This document shows, piece after piece, positions 31,531 to 50,257 of a stretch of DNA of 64,000 nt. The DNA comes from Neisseria sp. (GTDB lineage Bacteria > Pseudomonadota > Gammaproteobacteria > Burkholderiales > Neisseriaceae), in contig NZ_JAUMZU010000005.1 of the NCBI RefSeq assembly GCF_030527965.1, positions 1 through 64,000 of the forward strand, read 5' to 3'. The notes under the pieces are model-generated. The model had not been told where the DNA came from. It saw only the letters and a list, made by a program, of their open reading frames with translations, and did not search any database. A program made the position numbers and the translations under genes. The first letter of the stretch is position 1; every line of letters begins with the position of its first letter.

Positions 31531-31579
31531 AAATAAAGATGCCTGTCTGAAAACCTTTTTCAGACAGGCATCTTTATTT
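31531..31579. terminator. Extended inverted DUS pair
   Basis: AAATAAAGATGCCTGTCTGA and its reverse complement give an unusually long perfect stem (about 20 bp) between the convergent J-like gene and the ABC permease gene. Confidence 0.8.
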
Positions 31580-36464: not shown

Positions 36465-36480
36465 TACTGACTGGTATGGA

Positions 36481-36519
36481 AAAAGCCTGTCTGAAAATTC
36501 GTTTTCAGACAGGCTTTTT
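36481..36519. terminator. Inverted DUS pair after ileS
   Basis: AAAAGCCTGTCTGAAAA and its reverse complement are followed by TTTTTT: a strong intrinsic terminator 16 bp past the ileS stop. Confidence 0.85.
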
Positions 36520-36676
36520 TGATTCTCTTTGTGTAGTGTGGTGTTGTAAATAATATGTCTGGATTTAATGTATGTGTGTCGTATTTATTGATAATAATTT
36601 GAATTAAATCACTAATAACAAGAAGGGGTTTGGAGTTACTCAAATTTTAAGACTACATTAAACTACATATTTTTAT

Positions 36677-36754: not shown

Positions 36755-37780
36755 ATGGGCATTAAAGTTGCCATTAATGGTTATGGCCGCATAGGACGCC
36801 AAGTATTACGCGCAATTTATGATTATCAATTGGAAGATCAGCTGGAAGTGGTGGCGATTAACGCCAGCGGCTCGCTGGAAACCAACACGCATTTGACGAT
36901 TTTCGATACCGTTCATGGTCGGTTTAATGCTGATGTGGTGCATGATGCCCAGCATCTGATTATCAACGGCAAGCCGATTGCCTTTTTTTCTACGCGCAAC
37001 CCGCTTGAATTGCCGTGGAAAGATTTGGAAGTTGATTTGGTGTTGGAATGTACCGGTGCGTTTACCAGTAAATCCAAAGCACAAGTGCATCTGGAAGCGG
37101 GCGCTAAGAAAGTATTGATTTCCGCTCCGGGCGAAGCGGATGTGGATGCAACCGTGGTGTATGGCGTGAATCATGATGTGCTGACGCCCGAAATGATGGT
37201 GGTTTCCAATGCCTCTTGTACCACCAACTGCTTGGCTCCGGTTGCCAAGGCACTGAACGATGGTCTGGGTATTGAGAAAGGCTTGGTAACCACCATTCAC
37301 GCGCTGACCAATGACCAAACGGTAACCGACGTGCGGCATAAAGACTTGCGCCGTGCCCGCAGCGGTGTGGAAAACATGATTCCTACCAAAACCGGCGCGG
37401 CCAAGGCGGTAGGTTTGGTGTTGCCCTCTTTGAAAGGTAAGTTGGACGGTTGGGCTATTCGTGTGCCGACGGTCAACGTATCTTTGGTTGACCTAAGCTT
37501 TACCGCTGCGCGCGATACGACCGTGGAAGAGGTAAACCAAATTGTGAAAGCGGCTTCGGAAGGGGAGATGAAAGGCGTGCTGGGTTATAACACGCTGCCT
37601 CTGGTTTCGATGGACTTCAATCACACCACGCAAGCCAGCGTATTCGATGCCACGCTGACTAAAGTAGTTGACGGTAATGCGGTTAAAGTGTTTGCATGGT
37701 ATGACAATGAATGGGGCTTTAGCTGCCAGATGTTGAATACCGCGCGCGCAATGTTCGGTTTGCCTGTGCGACCTTTCTAA
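36755..37780 (+). CDS. gap: Glyceraldehyde-3-phosphate dehydrogenase, cofactor loop lacking the usual Asp
   Basis: Glycolytic or gluconeogenic oxidoreductase of 341 aa. It shows [16 protein letters not shown] at the N-terminus (Rossmann loop), the catalytic [12 protein letters not shown] near residue 150, and [12 protein letters not shown] at the C-terminus. After the second beta strand the sequence reads AINASG, where NAD-dependent enzymes have AINDxx; loss of this Asp is typical of enzymes that accept NADP. Neisseria carries two GAPDHs, and this one probably corresponds to the NADP-preferring form (GapA-2/GapB-like); that is inference. Strong ribosome-binding site AAAGGAAA. Confidence 0.93.
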
Positions 37781-37852: not shown

Positions 37853-38788
37853 TTATTTTCTCAGCGCTTTTGGTAAAACGAATATGATGCTTTCTTCCAC
37901 TCCCTCGCCTTCCTGCACGGTTTGGTGCCCCCAGTCTTGAATGGTTTGGATAACTTCTTTCACCAATATTTCCGGTGCGGAGGCGCCGGCAGTAATGCCG
38001 ACTTTGTTTTTTCCATGAAACCATTCCTGTTGCAGATAGGTGGCATTGTCGACCATATAGGCATCAACACCGCGCAATTTGGCCACTTCGCGCAAACGGT
38101 TGCTGTTGGAAGAATTGGGCGAACCGACCACAATCACGATATCGCATTCTGCCGCCAGATTTTTTACCGCTTCTTGACGGTTGGTGGTGGCATAACAAAT
38201 ATCTTCTTTGTGCGGGCTGCGGATGTTGGGAAAACGCACTTTGAGTGCTTCGATGATGTCTTTCGTTTCGTCTACCGAAAGGGTGGTTTGGCTGACATGA
38301 GAGAGTTTGTCGGGATTGTCGACTTGCAGTTTGTGCACATCGTCCACCGTTTCCACCAACAGCATGGCGCCTTCCGACAGTTGGCCCATCGTGCCTTCCA
38401 CTTCGGGGTGGCCTGAATGGCCGATCATGATAATCTGATAACCTTGCTCGTCCAGCCGGGCCACTTCTTTATGCACTTTGGTAACCAAAGGGCAAGTCGC
38501 ATCAAATACTTGAAAGCCGCGTGCTGCTGCTTCGTCTTGCACGGCTTTGGATACGCCGTGTGCCGAGTAAATCAGCGTTGCACCGGCGGGAACGTCGGCC
38601 AAATCTTCAATAAAAATCGCGCCTTTTTCGCGCAAGTTATCAACCACGAATTTATTGTGCACCACTTCGTGGCGAACATAAATCGGGGCGCCGAATTCCT
38701 CAAGCGCGCGCTCGACGATGCTGATGGCGCGGTCAACTCCGGCGCAAAAGCCGCGCGGGTTGGCCAACATGATGGTTTTGTTTGTCAT
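37853..38788 (-). CDS. ispH: 4-hydroxy-3-methylbut-2-enyl diphosphate reductase
   Basis: Last enzyme of the non-mevalonate isoprenoid pathway; a [4Fe-4S] protein that makes IPP and DMAPP. The three cluster cysteines are in [12 protein letters not shown] (near residue 13), [13 protein letters not shown] (near 96) and [24 protein letters not shown] near 223 is substrate-binding. About 311 aa. [13 protein letters not shown] at 38788 fits the family better than the ATG nine bases upstream. It is downstream of lspA on the same strand with a 20-bp gap, so the two form an operon. Confidence 0.95.
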
Positions 38789-38808
38789 GATGTGCATGTT
38801 TCTGAAAA

Positions 38809-39324
38809 TCAGGAAGAATGTTCCGCTTTTTGGGCGGCGGATTCTTTTTTATTGTTTCTAAGGCCGTCTAATACCAACAATGCCGCGCCGACCACGATAA
38901 AGCTGTCGGCCACGTTGAAGGCGGGATAAAACCAATCTTTCCAATAAAATAACAAATAGTCAATGACATGGCCGTGTTGTAGTCGGTCGGCAACATTACC
39001 GATGGCGCCGCCGATAACCATAGCCGCGCCGGTTTTACCCCAAGTACCGAATTGGTTGCGGATGATTTCGCGGATCAGCCAGCCGCAAATAACGGCAGCC
39101 AGACCGATAAAGAAAAATTTCTGCCAGCCTCCGGCATCTGCTAAAAAGCTGAATGCCGCGCCTGTATTATAAACGCGTGTCAGATCGAAAAAACCGGGGA
39201 TGATATTGACCCGTTCGTATTCTTGAAAAAATTTCAAAATAGCCGTTTTACTGAGTTGATCCAGTATGATGGCTGTAACGGCAAGCAGCCAATAGTGTGT
39301 GTTCGAGAGTTTTGGTTTATTCAT
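38809..39324 (-). CDS. lspA: Lipoprotein signal peptidase (signal peptidase II)
   Basis: Inner-membrane aspartyl protease that removes the signal peptide of diacylglyceryl-modified prolipoproteins. 171 aa with four hydrophobic helices. The catalytic Asp pair is in [20 protein letters not shown] near residue 110 and FNVADSFI near 140, and NTGAAFSFL near 53 is conserved. It is cotranscribed with ispH downstream. In most proteobacteria this pair follows ribF-ileS in the same direction; here it is on the other strand with gap between. Confidence 0.95.
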
Positions 39325-39451
39325 GGTGTAAACCGTGTAATCGGGAGCGTTATTTTAACTGATTCGGCTTGCTGTCGGTGGGAATTTCTAGAATGGGCGG
39401 CCGAAGTGTGAAATCCGAATGCTTATCTGAAAATAGTTACTGAAAATCGGT

Positions 39452-39565
39452 AAAAAAAACGCCATCTAAGTCAAGGGAATTGAAATAGATGGCCAAACAC
39501 ATTACGGGGAAAACGTCTTACTCACTTACTTGCGGTAGCAAGTAATGTCTATCAGACAGGGCGCA
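39452..39565 (-). ncRNA. Candidate small RNA B (second of a tandem sibling pair)
   Basis: About 113 nt on the minus strand. A -10-like TATTAT precedes the inferred 5' end, which begins near GCGCCCTGTCT. Stem-loop 1 (39526-39545) pairs TTACTTGC with GCAAGTAA. A 47-bp block at 39485-39531 is identical to 39757-39803 of the sibling and includes the C-rich GTTTTCCCCGT. A terminator hairpin (39461-39493) pairs GCCATCTA with TAGATGGC and is followed by T(8) at 39459-39452. The terminator loop contains TTCCCTTG. C- and U-rich segments of this type can pair with Shine-Dalgarno sequences. The architecture recalls the sibling sRNAs of pathogenic Neisseria, but identity is not shown. Confidence 0.75.
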
Positions 39566-39726
39566 TAATAAATTAGTTCCCGAATAATCGGGAAAAAAAA
39601 CCTTAAAGGCTTTGATTTTTGACAAGCGGTATTTTGATTGTGCGTAAATAAACACACTTTGTATGAAGCCGGCTTTTGATTGAGTGAATAAATAAAAAAA
39701 GCCGTGGTGTAGCTGAAATTTTAGAT

Positions 39727-39841
39727 AAAAAAAACCATCTATACCAAGGGGAAAGTATAGATGGCCAAACACATTACGGGGAAAACGTCTTACTCACTTA
39801 CTTACTCTATGAAAAGTAAGTGTTGTTAAGACAGGGGCGTT
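39727..39841 (-). ncRNA. Candidate small RNA A (first of a tandem sibling pair)
   Basis: About 115 nt on the minus strand. A -10-like TATATT lies just before the inferred 5' end near ACGCCCCTGTCT, and GGAACTA upstream is shared with the sibling. Stem-loop 1 (39800-39821) pairs ACTTACT with AGTAAGT: the stem is kept although the loop differs from sRNA B. The 47-bp block 39757-39803 is identical in both. The terminator (39735-39764) has a 10-bp stem, CCATCTATAC with GTATAGATGG, loop TTTCCCCTTG, then T(8). Stem preservation with changed sequence argues for real RNA structure. Confidence 0.78.
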
Positions 39842-39934
39842 TCAATATAGTTCCAAAGATATATGTTAAATAATGTAAATAGGATATTTGTAATAATAAC
39901 ATATTGAAAAATAATTAATTATAGAATTTGAATT

Positions 39935-40621
39935 CTATTCCGGTGTGATGAACCGCCATTGACCGGAGGTGAGATTTTCGGTATCCCATTTGCCGAAATT
40001 CAATCTGTGAAGTTTTTCTACGCGGTTGCCTGCGGCGGCCACCATGCGCTTGACTTGATGATATTTGCCTTCGGTAATGGTCAGCAATAAGGTTGTTGGA
40101 TCGCTGAGTTCGGCATCGGCAGCGGCAACGGTTTCGTTTTCATCGTGTAGTAAAACCCCGCTTTTTAAGCTTTCGCATAAATGAGAGTCAGCGGGATGTT
40201 TGAGCGTTGCCCGATAGCGTTTGGCGACTTTATGCTTGGGCGAAGTCATTTTATGGTTGAAATGCCCGTCGTTGGTGATGAGCAAAACGCCGGTGGTGTC
40301 GGCATCTAAACGGCCGACGGCTTGCATGCCGATTTGCCGCATGTGGTCGGGAAACAGGCTGAAGATGCTGGGGTAGTCGCGCGGTTTGTGCGAGGTTTCG
40401 TAATTTTCGGGTTTGTTGAGCAGAATGTAGAAATATGGGAGTGGCACAACGGTAATGGCTTGGCCGTCTATCGTGAGGCTTTGTATTTCGTTTGGGCAGA
40501 CGATGCTTCGGGGCTGATTGGCGATGGCGCCGTTGATTTCGACGCAATCGTTTTCAATCAGCCATTGGCAGCTTTTGCGGCTGCCGAGCCCTTGGGCCTG
40601 TAGGTATTTGAGCAGTTGCAT
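39935..40621 (-). CDS. rsuA: Ribosomal small subunit pseudouridine synthase (RsuA type)
   Basis: Makes pseudouridine 516 in 16S rRNA. 228 aa with an N-terminal S4 RNA-binding domain (LLKYLQAQGLGSRKSCQWLI) and the RsuA/RluB/E/F catalytic motif GRLDADTTGVLLITNDG near residue 100 with the essential Asp. LLLTITEGKYHQVKRM near 175 is the conserved RsuA-family segment that ends the catalytic core. RsuA rather than RluE or RluF is a best guess from the S4 domain and length. It starts 99 bp upstream of the end of the next minus-strand gene, with an inverted DUS pair between. Confidence 0.88.
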   Translation of the reverse strand: MQLLKYLQAQGLGSRKSCQWLIENDCVEINGAIANQPRSIVCPNEIQSLTIDGQAITVVPLPYFYILLNKPENYETSHKPRDYPSIFSLFPDHMRQIGMQAVGRLDADTTGVLLITNDGHFNHKMTSPKHKVAKRYRATLKHPADSHLCESLKSGVLLHDENETVAAADAELSDPTTLLLTITEGKYHQVKRMVAAAGNRVEKLHRLNFGKWDTENLTSGQWRFITPE

Positions 40622-40653
40622 AACGGGGATTGCCGAGTAAATATTTATTATAA

Positions 40654-40707
40654 CAAATGCCTGTCTGAAAATATAAAAGGGCGTTTTATATTTTCAGACA
40701 GGCATTT
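40654..40707. terminator. Long inverted DUS pair
   Basis: AAATGCCTGTCTGAAAATAT continues into AAAA and its reverse complement follows after GGGCG: a stem of more than 20 bp with T-rich end. It terminates the minus-strand J-like/TM2 gene that ends at 40721. Confidence 0.8.
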
Positions 40708-40720
40708 TGATGTGGCGGGT

Positions 40721-41272
40721 TTAGATGTGAATCATGCCGTGTTCGTCGGGGATATGGGCGGCGGCGCGGTAAATATCAAACAGGGATTTGAAAAACATAA
40801 CGGGCAGGCCGATGATGGTTAGGGAAAGCACCAAATGGATGACGGCCGCCAGTCGGTCGCCGACCAGTAGTCGGTCGCCGACCAGTAAATGGTGCAGGCC
40901 AAGTGCGCCGCCGAAAAAACCGCTGATGATATAGAGCGATTTGTTGACGGTGTGCATGCGCTCGATTTGTTTCTCGTGAGCGGAGGGAGGCGGTTCGTTG
41001 ACAAAAATCAGATAGTCGTTTTCGTTGGGGCTGTCGTCGGATGGAGTCGGTTTTGGCTCGGGATGGTTTATTTTTTCCCAGAGTTCGGGATAGGTTTGGA
41101 ATAATTTGACGTCGTATTCGGCTTTGGCAACCGGCGTGGATAAGGTGTCACGGATTTCCCTCAATTGGCGTAGCGACAGTAATTCTTGTTCGGCGGCATG
41201 CAGCATGGCACGGCTGACTTGTTTGGAATCGGCACCTGCGGGCAGGTTGAGTAAGTCATATAGATTTTTCAT
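40721..41272 (-). CDS. J-like / TM2-domain membrane protein with an in-frame 18-bp tandem duplication
   Basis: 183 aa. Residues 1-60 look like a degenerate J-domain (NLYDLLNLPAGADSKQVSRAM, then REIRDTLSTPVAKAEYD) without HPD. A proline-rich acidic linker leads to a C-terminal TM2-like pair of helices (IISGFFGGALGLHHLL and VLSLTIIGLPVMFFKSLFD). The sequence LLVGDR occurs twice in a row, encoded by an exact 18-bp tandem repeat at 40851-40886, in the loop between the helices. Function is unknown. This is the second protein of the window that joins a J-like domain to membrane helices. Confidence 0.7.
   Translation of the reverse strand: MKNLYDLLNLPAGADSKQVSRAMLHAAEQELLSLRQLREIRDTLSTPVAKAEYDVKLFQTYPELWEKINHPEPKPTPSDDSPNENDYLIFVNEPPPSAHEKQIERMHTVNKSLYIISGFFGGALGLHHLLVGDRLLVGDRLAAVIHLVLSLTIIGLPVMFFKSLFDIYRAAAHIPDEHGMIHI
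40851..40886 (-). repeat. 18-bp perfect tandem duplication inside a coding region
   Basis: AGTCGGTCGCCGACCAGT occurs twice back to back. Each unit adds six residues (LLVGDR on the minus strand), so the frame is kept. The unit itself contains a partial palindrome (GGTCGCCGACC), which may favour replication slippage. Confidence 0.9.
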
Positions 41273-41466
41273 GATATGCGCTTTCGACGTTTTGTATTTT
41301 ATGATGTAACTTATGTTATTTTAATTATGAATAAATACTATTGTAAAATATAGTTTACGAAAGTGATAAATATCAGATAAACGGATTTAATAATTACCTC
41401 CGACAACATGCCGTTGGTGTAAAATACGCGGCTTTGAACGATTCGAATAACAAAGGAGCAAAAAAC

Positions 41467-42081
41467 ATGCTGAATCTATATTATTTGCCGGGTGCTTGCT
41501 CGTTGGTGCCGCATACTGCGCTGGAGTGGTCGGGAGCGGATTATCAGGCGGTGGAAGTGCCGCGCGATAAATTGAAATCGCCTGAATTTTTGGCGTTGAA
41601 CCCGATGGGGAGTGTGCCGGTATTGCAAGAAGGTGATTGGTCGTTGTCGCAAAATATTGCGATTTTGGCCTATCTAAACGATCTTTATCCTCAGGCCGGT
41701 ATTTTGGGCTCTGATGATAAACAGAAGCGGGCGAAAGTGTATCAATGGCTCGGCTTTATCAATGCCGATTTGCATCCTTCTTTTTCGCCTTTGTTTGCGC
41801 CGCAACGTTTTGTGGATGGCGAGGAAGAGCAGGCAAAATTGCGCGCTGTTGCAGCAGGCAAGGTAACGACGCTTTATGCTTATCCGCATGAGGTATTGGC
41901 GCAGCAGGATTTTCTGACCGGCGAGAAAACGATTGCCGATGTGTATCTTTATGTGACGTTGCGTTGGGCAGGCGCTTTGGGCTTGGACTTGAGCGCTTAC
42001 CCTGCGTTTGCCGGATTCTATGAGCGGATGGAAGCGGATGAAGGCGTGCGGCAGGCTTTAGCTAAGCAGGGCTTGTTGTAA
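41467..42081 (+). CDS. Glutathione S-transferase, beta-like
   Basis: 204 aa cytosolic GST. The N-terminal thioredoxin-like domain begins LNLYYLPGACSLVPHTALEW, with Cys near residue 10 as in bacterial beta-class GSTs, and has GSVPVLQEGDWSLSQNIAIL near 50 with the conserved cis-Pro and glutathione-binding Gln/Ser. The helical C-terminal domain has TIADVYLYV near 155 (N-capping box). AAAGGAG eight bases upstream fixes the start at 41467. Substrate is unknown. It is monocistronic, ended by a DUS hairpin. Confidence 0.9.
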   Translation: MLNLYYLPGACSLVPHTALEWSGADYQAVEVPRDKLKSPEFLALNPMGSVPVLQEGDWSLSQNIAILAYLNDLYPQAGILGSDDKQKRAKVYQWLGFINADLHPSFSPLFAPQRFVDGEEEQAKLRAVAAGKVTTLYAYPHEVLAQQDFLTGEKTIADVYLYVTLRWAGALGLDLSAYPAFAGFYERMEADEGVRQALAKQGLL

Positions 42082-45174: not shown

Positions 45175-45687
45175 TTATTTACCTGCAGCGGCGGATGCGG
45201 CATGAGCCGGTTTGCCGTGGGCGGCATGCTCGGTAAAGTGGAGGGTTTTGCCGTTTTGAGTCAATTCGGCACTGGTGCCGTCGGTTTCCCATGTGATGTT
45301 GCCGTCGCTGTAAACTGCGCCTTGGGGCAGGGCATCGGTTTGTTTCAAAACGGCTTCGGCCTGGCCGTTGATTTTCAAACGAACAACCGGCATGTCGCCC
45401 GTGCTGTCGTATACGGCGTGGGCGCTGGTTTTATCTGTTGCGTGATAATCGGCGGTGCGGTTGGCGGGCAACCCGGGTTCCTGCTCTTGCGGTGCGTTTT
45501 CGCCGGAAGCGTAATCGTCGGGCAACGTGTCGGGTGGCGGGGCGGAAGCGTCGGCATAAGCGGCATAATTGCTGGCATTTTCCATTTGTGCCTGCTCTTC
45601 TGATGAAGAAAGTTCGTTGTCGTGCTGTCCGCCGCAAGCGGCGAGGGCAAGCGTCATGAGAATGGGGGTTAAATATCTGTATTTCAT
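45175..45687 (-). CDS. Lipoprotein with C-terminal MliC-like segment
   Basis: About 170 aa from MKYRYLTPILMTLALAACGG, with AAGGAG upstream of 45687; a longer in-frame start at 45729 would put residues ahead of the signal peptide. The lipobox is LAAC. A long acidic, Ala/Pro-rich linker (about residues 22-85) is followed by a compact region, VVRLKINGQAEAVL, then GAVYSDGNITWETDG, that resembles the second half of MliC lysozyme inhibitors, although the MliC cysteines are absent. It is probably an outer-membrane lipoprotein. It ends in an Ala-rich tail. Function uncertain. Confidence 0.7.
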   Translation of the reverse strand: MKYRYLTPILMTLALAACGGQHDNELSSSEEQAQMENASNYAAYADASAPPPDTLPDDYASGENAPQEQEPGLPANRTADYHATDKTSAHAVYDSTGDMPVVRLKINGQAEAVLKQTDALPQGAVYSDGNITWETDGTSAELTQNGKTLHFTEHAAHGKPAHAASAAAGK

Positions 45688-45807
45688 TAGAGGCAATACT
45701 CCTTTTACCGTTGTTGGACTGCCGGGCATCTGTTAGGTTCAATCGGGTGTGATGGTTTAAGGCCGTTTTATGTATTGGAATAGGTTGGGGCAGAGGGTTG
45801 TTTTTAT

Positions 45808-49681: not shown

Positions 49682-50257
49682 TTATTTTTTTGCAGCGGAA
49701 GCACCGGCGTTTGATGCAGCGGCGGAAGCAACGCCTGATGCAGCAGAGGCAGCGCCTGATGCGGCTCCGGAAGCAGCAACGGGTGGTGCTTCGAAATGAC
49801 CGCCGGATTGATTCGCCATATAAGCAATGGCACGTTTCAGCTCGTCATCGGTCAAGTCGCTGGCGCCGCCTTTGGCCGGCATGTTGTTAAAGCCGTGCAA
49901 TGCGTGGTCAAACAAGGTGTCGAAACCTTTTGCAATGCGTGGAGCCCAGTCTGCATTGTGGGTTACTTTGGGTGCTACGGCAACAGAGCTATCGGCCGCA
50001 TGGCATTGGGAACATACTTTTTGGAAGATTTTATCGCCTTGGCGCATACCTACGGGAACGCCGTCGCCCATAGTAATGTTGCCGGTGGGCAGAATACGGG
50101 TGGCGATGGCGGCCTCAGTGGTTTCCCCGACGTCGCCGTAATAGCCGCTGGTGGCCAGCTTGACTAGAAAAAACAAAACTGCCAGAAGGATAACAATGCC
50201 GCTGATCAGAGTAAATGCTGCGGATCCGCGGACACTTTGTTTGGTTGTATGGTTCAT
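49682..50257 (-). CDS. Membrane-anchored monoheme cytochrome c5-like protein
   Basis: 191 aa. An uncleaved N-terminal anchor (about residues 12-34, FTLISGIVILLAVLFFLV) places it on the periplasmic face. One heme motif, CSQCH, is near residue 82, and the axial Met is likely in GFNNMPAKGG near 123. The C-terminal 40 residues are almost only Ala, Ser and Gly (AASGAASGAAS), ending AKK: a low-complexity tail or linker. Neisserial cytochrome c5 has two heme domains, so this could be a truncated or one-domain relative. The start at 50257 is chosen over an upstream ATG because it gives the normal K/R-then-hydrophobic anchor. Confidence 0.85.
   Translation of the reverse strand: MNHTTKQSVRGSAAFTLISGIVILLAVLFFLVKLATSGYYGDVGETTEAAIATRILPTGNITMGDGVPVGMRQGDKIFQKVCSQCHAADSSVAVAPKVTHNADWAPRIAKGFDTLFDHALHGFNNMPAKGGASDLTDDELKRAIAYMANQSGGHFEAPPVAASGAASGAASAASGVASAAASNAGASAAKK

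Follow-up and report, generated by a model that had tools for sequence, protein, structure and literature searches.

The 64,000-nucleotide window of Neisseria sp. analysed here (the whole stretch of DNA, contig NZ_JAUMZU010000005.1, positions 1 to 64,000) carries on its minus strand, between lspA and an rsuA-like gene, what are probably two tandem genes for sibling small RNAs (sRNAs) of ~95 nt, each with its own sigma-E promoter and intrinsic terminator; this grading applies jointly to the whole explanation developed below. Its parts differ in firmness: the sRNA family is secure, the promoter assignment is likely, and the mechanism is one that we infer. The evidence was computed and consists of the two units, their family and its distribution, covariation in the terminator stem, and a promoter motif that co-occurs with RpoE and also precedes rpoE.

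Copy 1, on the rsuA side, is predicted to span 39727..39821 (minus strand), its start set by the promoter and its end by a run of eight Ts; copy 2, on the lspA side, is predicted at 39452..39546 (minus strand). Transcripts of about 115 nt had been expected in an earlier note on this DNA; a start from the sigma-E-type promoter would shorten each to ~95 nt. From 5' to 3', each unit has a first hairpin, a small one in the middle whose loop is C-rich, and a terminator hairpin followed by eight Ts. The 5' stem-loops lie at 39795..39822 (copy 1) and 39526..39545 (copy 2), and both stems proposed from the letters, ACTTACT/AGTAAGT and, in copy 2, TTACTTGC/GCAAGTAA, do form hairpins when folded. The terminator hairpins lie at 39727..39766 in copy 1 (C-rich apical loop; folding and covariation) and 39452..39493 in copy 2 (loop TTCCC; folding), and the T8 tracts noted earlier were found at 39727-39734 and 39452-39459, where the plus strand reads A8. 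The longest block common to the units is, as claimed, exactly 47 bp (39757..39803, by alignment and block comparison, and 39485..39531, by block comparison). In both copies it holds the core GAGTAAGACGTTTTCCCC, which in copy 1 forms the small hairpin (ACGU/AUGU) with its C-rich loop. The C/U-rich segments GTTTTCCCCGT, TTTCCCCTTG and TTCCCTTG were all located. Folding energies lie far below those of shuffled sequences (z = -4.7 and -4.2; 0 of 200 shuffles as low for either unit). The idea of tandem sibling sRNAs on the minus strand is thus supported, for the predicted transcripts, by structure, covariation and conservation. The upstream neighbour, a gene for an rsuA-like 16S pseudouridine synthase (39935..40621, minus strand), adjoins a copy in other Neisseria too. 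Downstream lie lspA (38809..39324, minus strand) and gap (glyceraldehyde-3-phosphate dehydrogenase; 36755..37780, plus strand; named from its protein letters), which adjoins a copy in other species.

An alignment of 53 distinct copies (A1) was assembled by core pattern and T-run, leaving out the copies L068 and L091, which have no T-run; because copies were chosen by the core pattern, part of the uniformity of their cores in A1 comes from the selection. Model R1 was built from A1, and the "Bns2 family" as defined here means R1. In both window copies the family core GAGUAAGACGUUUUCCC, with AAUGUNUU, is found together with a terminator hairpin whose loop is C-rich; their R1 scores, 116.7 bits for copy 1 and 92.1 bits for copy 2, are not independent because both copies belong to the training set. 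The search across the Neisseriaceae that had been recommended gave 125 R1 matches in 69 of 83 genomes and 7 of 12 genera. Two to four matches occur in 38 of the 46 genomes of the window's genus, and other genera mostly have none or one. In an order-wide sample of 200 genomes R1 matched six, four of them Neisseriaceae; the weak matches in G124 and G157, outside the family, have neither core nor terminator on reading and were discarded as chance hits. An exact-pattern scan of the genome collection returned 34 stretches, all from Neisseriaceae, a label that we take from record titles and known genera. The window genome itself has three copies, the tandem pair and one beside a suhB-like gene (C32:1068-1170) that has no sigma-E motif, and related units occur at other loci, namely suhB, prmC-gap, thiF, ftsZ and prpB. 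The copy near prpB (methylisocitrate lyase) was seen in two genomes outside the window's genus (L085/L146 and L140); prpB mRNA is a reported target of NmsRA in meningococcus (PMC5362039). Some copies appear degenerate. The weak R1 matches L154 (G005) and L170 (G076) seem to be either decayed copies or chance matches. In part of the meningococcal cluster the rsuA-linked copy also looks decayed, with a broken T-run in L068 (N. gonorrhoeae), a missing terminator in L091 (N. bergeri), and a similar appearance in L155.

The terminator stem is conserved as a structure. Seven of its ten pairs have changed on both sides, 98.9% of alignment cells are paired, and 32 different 10-base stem strings occur among the copies, some being shifts of one another. 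Its covariation exceeded that of all 500 shuffles by four of five measures, the fifth (pair types) being reached by 4 shuffles. The score also exceeded all slid versions, a comparison that favours the structure because the structure was derived from the same alignment. The apical loop contains CCC in 66 of 75 copies (two of 77, with the core not recognised, were dropped); among the copies lacking a C-rich terminator loop are L160, which is of the Bns2 type, and two gap-linked ones, L158 and L159. The 5' hairpins are stabler than mononucleotide shuffles (mean -12.0 versus -6.8 kcal/mol), and the 5' loop is likewise C-rich in many suhB-class copies, e.g. UUUCUCCCUUUU. A 35-base part of the 47-bp block is identical in 26 of the 77 copies examined, so the 47-bp identity is not a mark of recent duplication; it is probably held by selection.

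Members of this family have been recorded before under separate names. In the meningococcal cluster one copy with the same core lies beside moeB/thiF, a neighbour of ppc (L078, L160). Since NMB2061 is ppc (PMC2323225), and thiF and nmb2063 flank one intergenic region (PMC7848997), this copy sits in the interval of Bns2. Bns2 (2062-2063_F) of N. meningitidis MC58 was validated by Northern blot and, earlier, by RACE (PMC4423775), and we infer from position that the letters of the moeB/thiF-linked copy are those of the Bns2 transcript. Bns2 shares family membership and core with the window copies; unlike them, the Bns2-type copy in the RpoE-less genome G008 has TATAAT and no sigma-E motif. Copy 2 was considered as the Bns2 orthologue, as suggested by the prmC neighbour that N. 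elongata shares with the meningococcal cluster; the tree, which places Bns2 elsewhere with weak support, does not bear this out. The suhB-linked copy is, by MC58 gene order, presumably IG73/1923-1924_R. An RNA of that name was also seen by Northern blot (PMC4423775), and the accessible part of that paper draws no relation between it and Bns2. The Rfam family IR_84 (RF02861, Neisseria sRNA 84) covers copy 1 at 59.8 bits, above its gathering score of 51, and this match is independent of R1; copy 2, at 28.8 bits, falls below. The IR_84 model does not describe the strand that carries the sRNA but the opposing one: at its 5' end the consensus has the complement of the terminator T-run (window 39719-39880, plus strand; L001:1501-1685, plus strand), and it is on the minus strand that the window's T-runs and promoter motifs are read. 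The strongest IR_84 matches carry the suhB-class core. The earlier suggestion of "a new pair" therefore holds in part: the pair as such appears new, and it belongs to a Neisseriaceae family with Bns2 (by position) and the opposite-strand IR_84. What is new here is the control, the sigma-E-type promoter of a family of which parts were known. In the literature searched, no prior report of the sigma-E link or of the union of Bns2 with IR_84 was found, and earlier notice is possible. Gene order also suggests to us that the stretch of MC58 before NMB1299 may be the rsuA-linked sRNA locus. Six mutations between blood and CSF isolates are reported in the intergenic segment 1315621-1315672 before that gene (PMC5361624).

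Both window copies are preceded by GGAACTA-N15/16-GTCT[GT]A, the form of a sigma-E promoter. Motif matching places GGAACTA-N15-GTCTTA at 39827..39854 for copy 1 and GGAACTA-N16-GTCTGA at 39552..39580 for copy 2 (both minus strand). The sigma-E promoter of E. coli is described as GGAACTT and TCAAA, and two of the three strongest sigma-E promoters of that organism transcribe sRNAs (PMC2893595). Measured against GGAACTT, a spacer of 15-16 and TC(T/A)(G/A)A, both copies conform, with a -35 one base off the E. coli consensus and GTCTTA as the -10 of copy 1. The -10-like element reported earlier for each unit does exist; its conserved form is GTCT[TG]A paired with GGAACTA, and neither unit has an exact TATAAT at that place. 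Upstream of rsuA- and gap-linked copies generally, GAACT[AT] is followed after 15 or 16 bases by GTC and usually TGA. An initial version of the pattern, which differed slightly, matched 23 of 77 copies, and GAAC[TC][TA]-N14-17-GTC occurs in 25 of 76 upstream regions, compared with a mean of 0.17 and a maximum of 2 in mononucleotide shuffles, many regions coming from close species and hence not being independent. Of the 43 motif-bearing copies, 37 have a spacer of 15 and 6 one of 16, and the letters of the spacer vary between genera. An inverted repeat, TTCCCGATTATTCGGGAA (39577-39594, minus strand), overlaps the -35 of copy 2; one of its arms differs in N. wadsworthii (L080), where GGAACT is kept.

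The unchanged pattern also stands upstream of rpoE itself in all seven RpoE-positive genomes examined, including the window's own (GGAACCA-N15-GTCATA); about 0.2 such matches would be expected by chance, going by the 126 hits in all fetched DNA (2.17 Mb, both strands), to which the sRNA loci themselves contribute. It is absent upstream of the one other ECF gene examined, in the RpoE-less G008. Further matches at window positions 45740, 50255 and 62110 (minus strand) indicate that the pattern is not specific by itself. The first of these is near the start of a lipoprotein-like ORF (45175-45729) and the second near that of a cytochrome c ORF (49682-50257); all three occurrences may be due to chance.

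The motif follows the sigma factor across genomes. The pattern was fixed before any RpoE result and applied unchanged; RpoE was scored with TIGR02939 (curated cut-off 236) over 83 genomes, and the best scores fell into two groups, at least 184 bits (55 genomes, 14 of them under 236) and at most 54. Of 125 R1 hits, 117 were mapped to sequence, with 8 unmapped, and were classed by their core letters. In class A, the class of the window copies (54 copies), 36 of 37 copies from RpoE-positive genomes, all over the cut-off, carry the motif, as does 1 of 17 from RpoE-negative genomes; counted by genome the figures are 31 of 32 and 1 of 12. The Fisher p on copies, 1.3e-11, overstates the evidence because independent losses of RpoE are few, judged at ~2-4. 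In the RsuA tree (40 of the 44 class A genomes), the RpoE-negative genomes are the meningococcal cluster plus four scattered among RpoE-positive relatives, two of these four being just 83-85% complete. The exceptions are G100, which has RpoE and no motif, and Bergeriella denitrificans (G034), which has the motif with no RpoE found. The suhB-linked class has the motif in none of 32 copies, 26 from RpoE-positive and 6 from RpoE-negative genomes. Among the 31 other copies it occurs in six, all from RpoE-positive genomes (four just under the cut-off), and is absent from 17 copies of RpoE-positive genomes, including four g28 genomes and the Snodgrassella-like genus g34, and from 8 of RpoE-negative genomes. 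In the window genome RpoE scores 270 bits against the cut-off of 236, and the next gene matches RseA_N, as does the gene after rpoE in all three genomes tested. N. gonorrhoeae (G020) and N. elongata (G007) are RpoE-negative, and RpoE has apparently been lost from the gonococcus and the species closest to it.

In the proposed mechanism, envelope stress would free RpoE from the anti-sigma factor RseA, and the freed RpoE would transcribe both window sRNA genes. Two C-rich loops of these RNAs, UUUUCCCC in the core hairpin and UUUCCCCUU or UUCCCUUG in the terminator hairpin, would then be exposed as single strands and could pair with G-rich Shine-Dalgarno regions and block translation. Such pairing is suggested by the C-rich loops and by the precedent of NmsRA, whose anti-Shine-Dalgarno loops, tested by mutation, are needed for repression (PMC5362039). 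In six genomes, CGGGGAAAA-N0-14-ATG gave 53 matches versus 11 for the reversed control, and AAGGGGAAA-N0-14-ATG gave 52, some antisense to the sRNAs, versus 24. When the ORFs of at least 40 aa behind located matches were compared by eye, no recurring gene seemed present among 30 matches of either search. No convincing target emerged from a crude duplex screen in which 51 leaders from the window were compared with that of one porin, the porin leader ranking 36th of 52. AAGGGGAAA lies just before the ATG of putative cas genes in three different genomes (L219, L226, L229), too few to judge; the ORFs look to us like cas4, cas2 and cas1.

Other explanations of the control and action of these RNAs were weighed. 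They might be base-pairing sRNAs driven by sigma-70 with another regulator, GAACT...GTCTGA not being read by RpoE; we regard this as unlikely, and it is the strongest of the competing accounts. Of 76 upstream regions, 57 contain TA[TGC]AAT, against a mean of 17.8 after shuffling, and 41 contain the direct repeat TT[TA]A[CT]-N4-6-TT[TA]A[CT], against a mean of 4.2, which suggests another regulator; the repeat might be a site for an OmpR-family protein such as MisR, or another activator site. Moreover, GTCTGA is kept in several RpoE-negative species that lost GAACT, and so may serve another role, and TATAAT lies inside the spacer in most RpoE-positive species, so that sigma-70 may drive the sRNA gene too. 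Against an exclusive sigma-70 role stand the co-occurrence of motif and RpoE, the absence of the motif from the suhB class, the near-constant spacing, the same pattern at rpoE itself, and the lack of exact TATAAT at the promoter of either window copy. Still less probable is that the RNAs work without mRNA pairing, their core binding a protein (Hfq, ProQ or other) instead. The core GAGUAAGACGUUUUCCC varies less than a seed would seem to require, GGGAAAACGT, its 10-base complement, matches exactly in G008 only at the three sRNA loci, and the meningococcal ProQ binds structured sRNAs and terminators (PMC7272453); however, the separate C-rich loops kept across genera fit anti-Shine-Dalgarno pairing, and NmsRA of the same genus requires such loops to repress (PMC5362039).

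Two further readings concern what the units are, and both seem very improbable. That they are 3'-UTR pieces or attenuators of rsuA is in keeping with their place on the same strand directly downstream of that gene, but related units at suhB, prmC-gap, thiF, ftsZ and prpB have promoter-like elements of their own. The second is orthology to NmsRA/NmsRB (NgncR_162/163, RcoF), the tandem metabolic siblings of pathogenic Neisseria, of which the earlier note had thought the units might be a "wad-dialect" version. The likeness is real: both pairs are tandem siblings of one genus with three hairpins and pyrimidine-rich anti-Shine-Dalgarno loops (PMC5362039). Loop letters and locus differ, however, NmsRA/B of meningococcus lying between dsbB and lrp (PMC5362039) and the window pair between lspA and rsuA. 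The window genome has a separate NmsR pair on contig C14 (G000:C14:153987-154315), recognised by RF02877 (NmsRb, RcoF1/NgncR163) at 76.3 and 72.2 bits against a gathering score of 52, and RF02877 has no covariance-model match at the window sRNA region. Nor does either family's model find the other's locus: the NmsR model R2 gave nothing over window 38000-41500, and R1 nothing at eight dsbB loci, four of which hold the NmsR core pair; RF02877 recognised both copies at the two such loci scanned (L052, L054). R2 matches 73 of 83 Neisseriaceae genomes, so the two families live side by side. Common ancestry by structure alone aside, identity with NmsRA/B is refuted by the genome's own NmsR pair and the lack of cross-match.

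The preferred reading, sigma-E-controlled siblings, has parallels elsewhere. The sigma-E-dependent sRNAs of enteric bacteria, MicA, RybB and MicL, act on omp targets through a 5' seed. They share with the window pair a sigma-E-type promoter common with rpoE itself; in contrast, they have no Rfam match at the window, and the window RNAs have C-rich loops in place of a 5' seed. A meningococcal sigma-E sRNA (PMC3240639; tracrRNA in PMC4423775) is likewise tied to a Neisseria factor called sigma-E, but it is another RNA at another locus, by dnaE. NMB2144, the protein called "sigma-E" in meningococcus, is another ECF factor: it shares 28% identity with E. coli RpoE and has the -35 motif GTAAGGTT (PMC2893595). 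On balance, by a narrower margin of confidence than for the locus itself, we favour the broader interpretation that in the Neisseriaceae the sigma-E response to envelope stress includes an RNA arm. The siblings would be split between sigma-E control (rsuA/gap-linked) and other control (suhB-linked), and the gonococcus/meningococcus lineage would have lost RpoE and RseA and kept the sRNAs under sigma-70 promoters, making Bns2 an orphaned stress sRNA. If so, promoters can be lost and replaced in siblings whose RNA sequence is kept, and commensal Neisseria are the place to look for the regulon; work on the gonococcus and close relatives would not reveal the sigma-E link because those genomes are without this sigma factor. 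The analysis also joins the separate records of Bns2, IR_84 and (presumably, by gene order) IG73 in one family with structure and phylogeny, points out that IR_84 is on the wrong strand, and gives an sRNA family a testable trigger.

The tandem pair is probably old, judging from a copy-by-copy tree and gene orders. A tree of 77 copies unites window copy 1 with the first copies of three relatives, whereas window copy 2 clusters with second copies and gap-linked copies from other species and with one rsuA-linked copy that is single (support weak, at 0.63). The gene order in G016 and G011 is rsuA, copy 1, copy 2, gap; N. elongata has one copy by rsuA and another between prmC and gap; and in the window genome and three relatives, lspA and ispH lie between copy 2 and gap. 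Elsewhere in the window, at 31532-31578, 36479-36520 and 40658-40704, are terminator-like repeats of paired uptake sequences, which we take to be of the GCCTGTCTGAA dialect.
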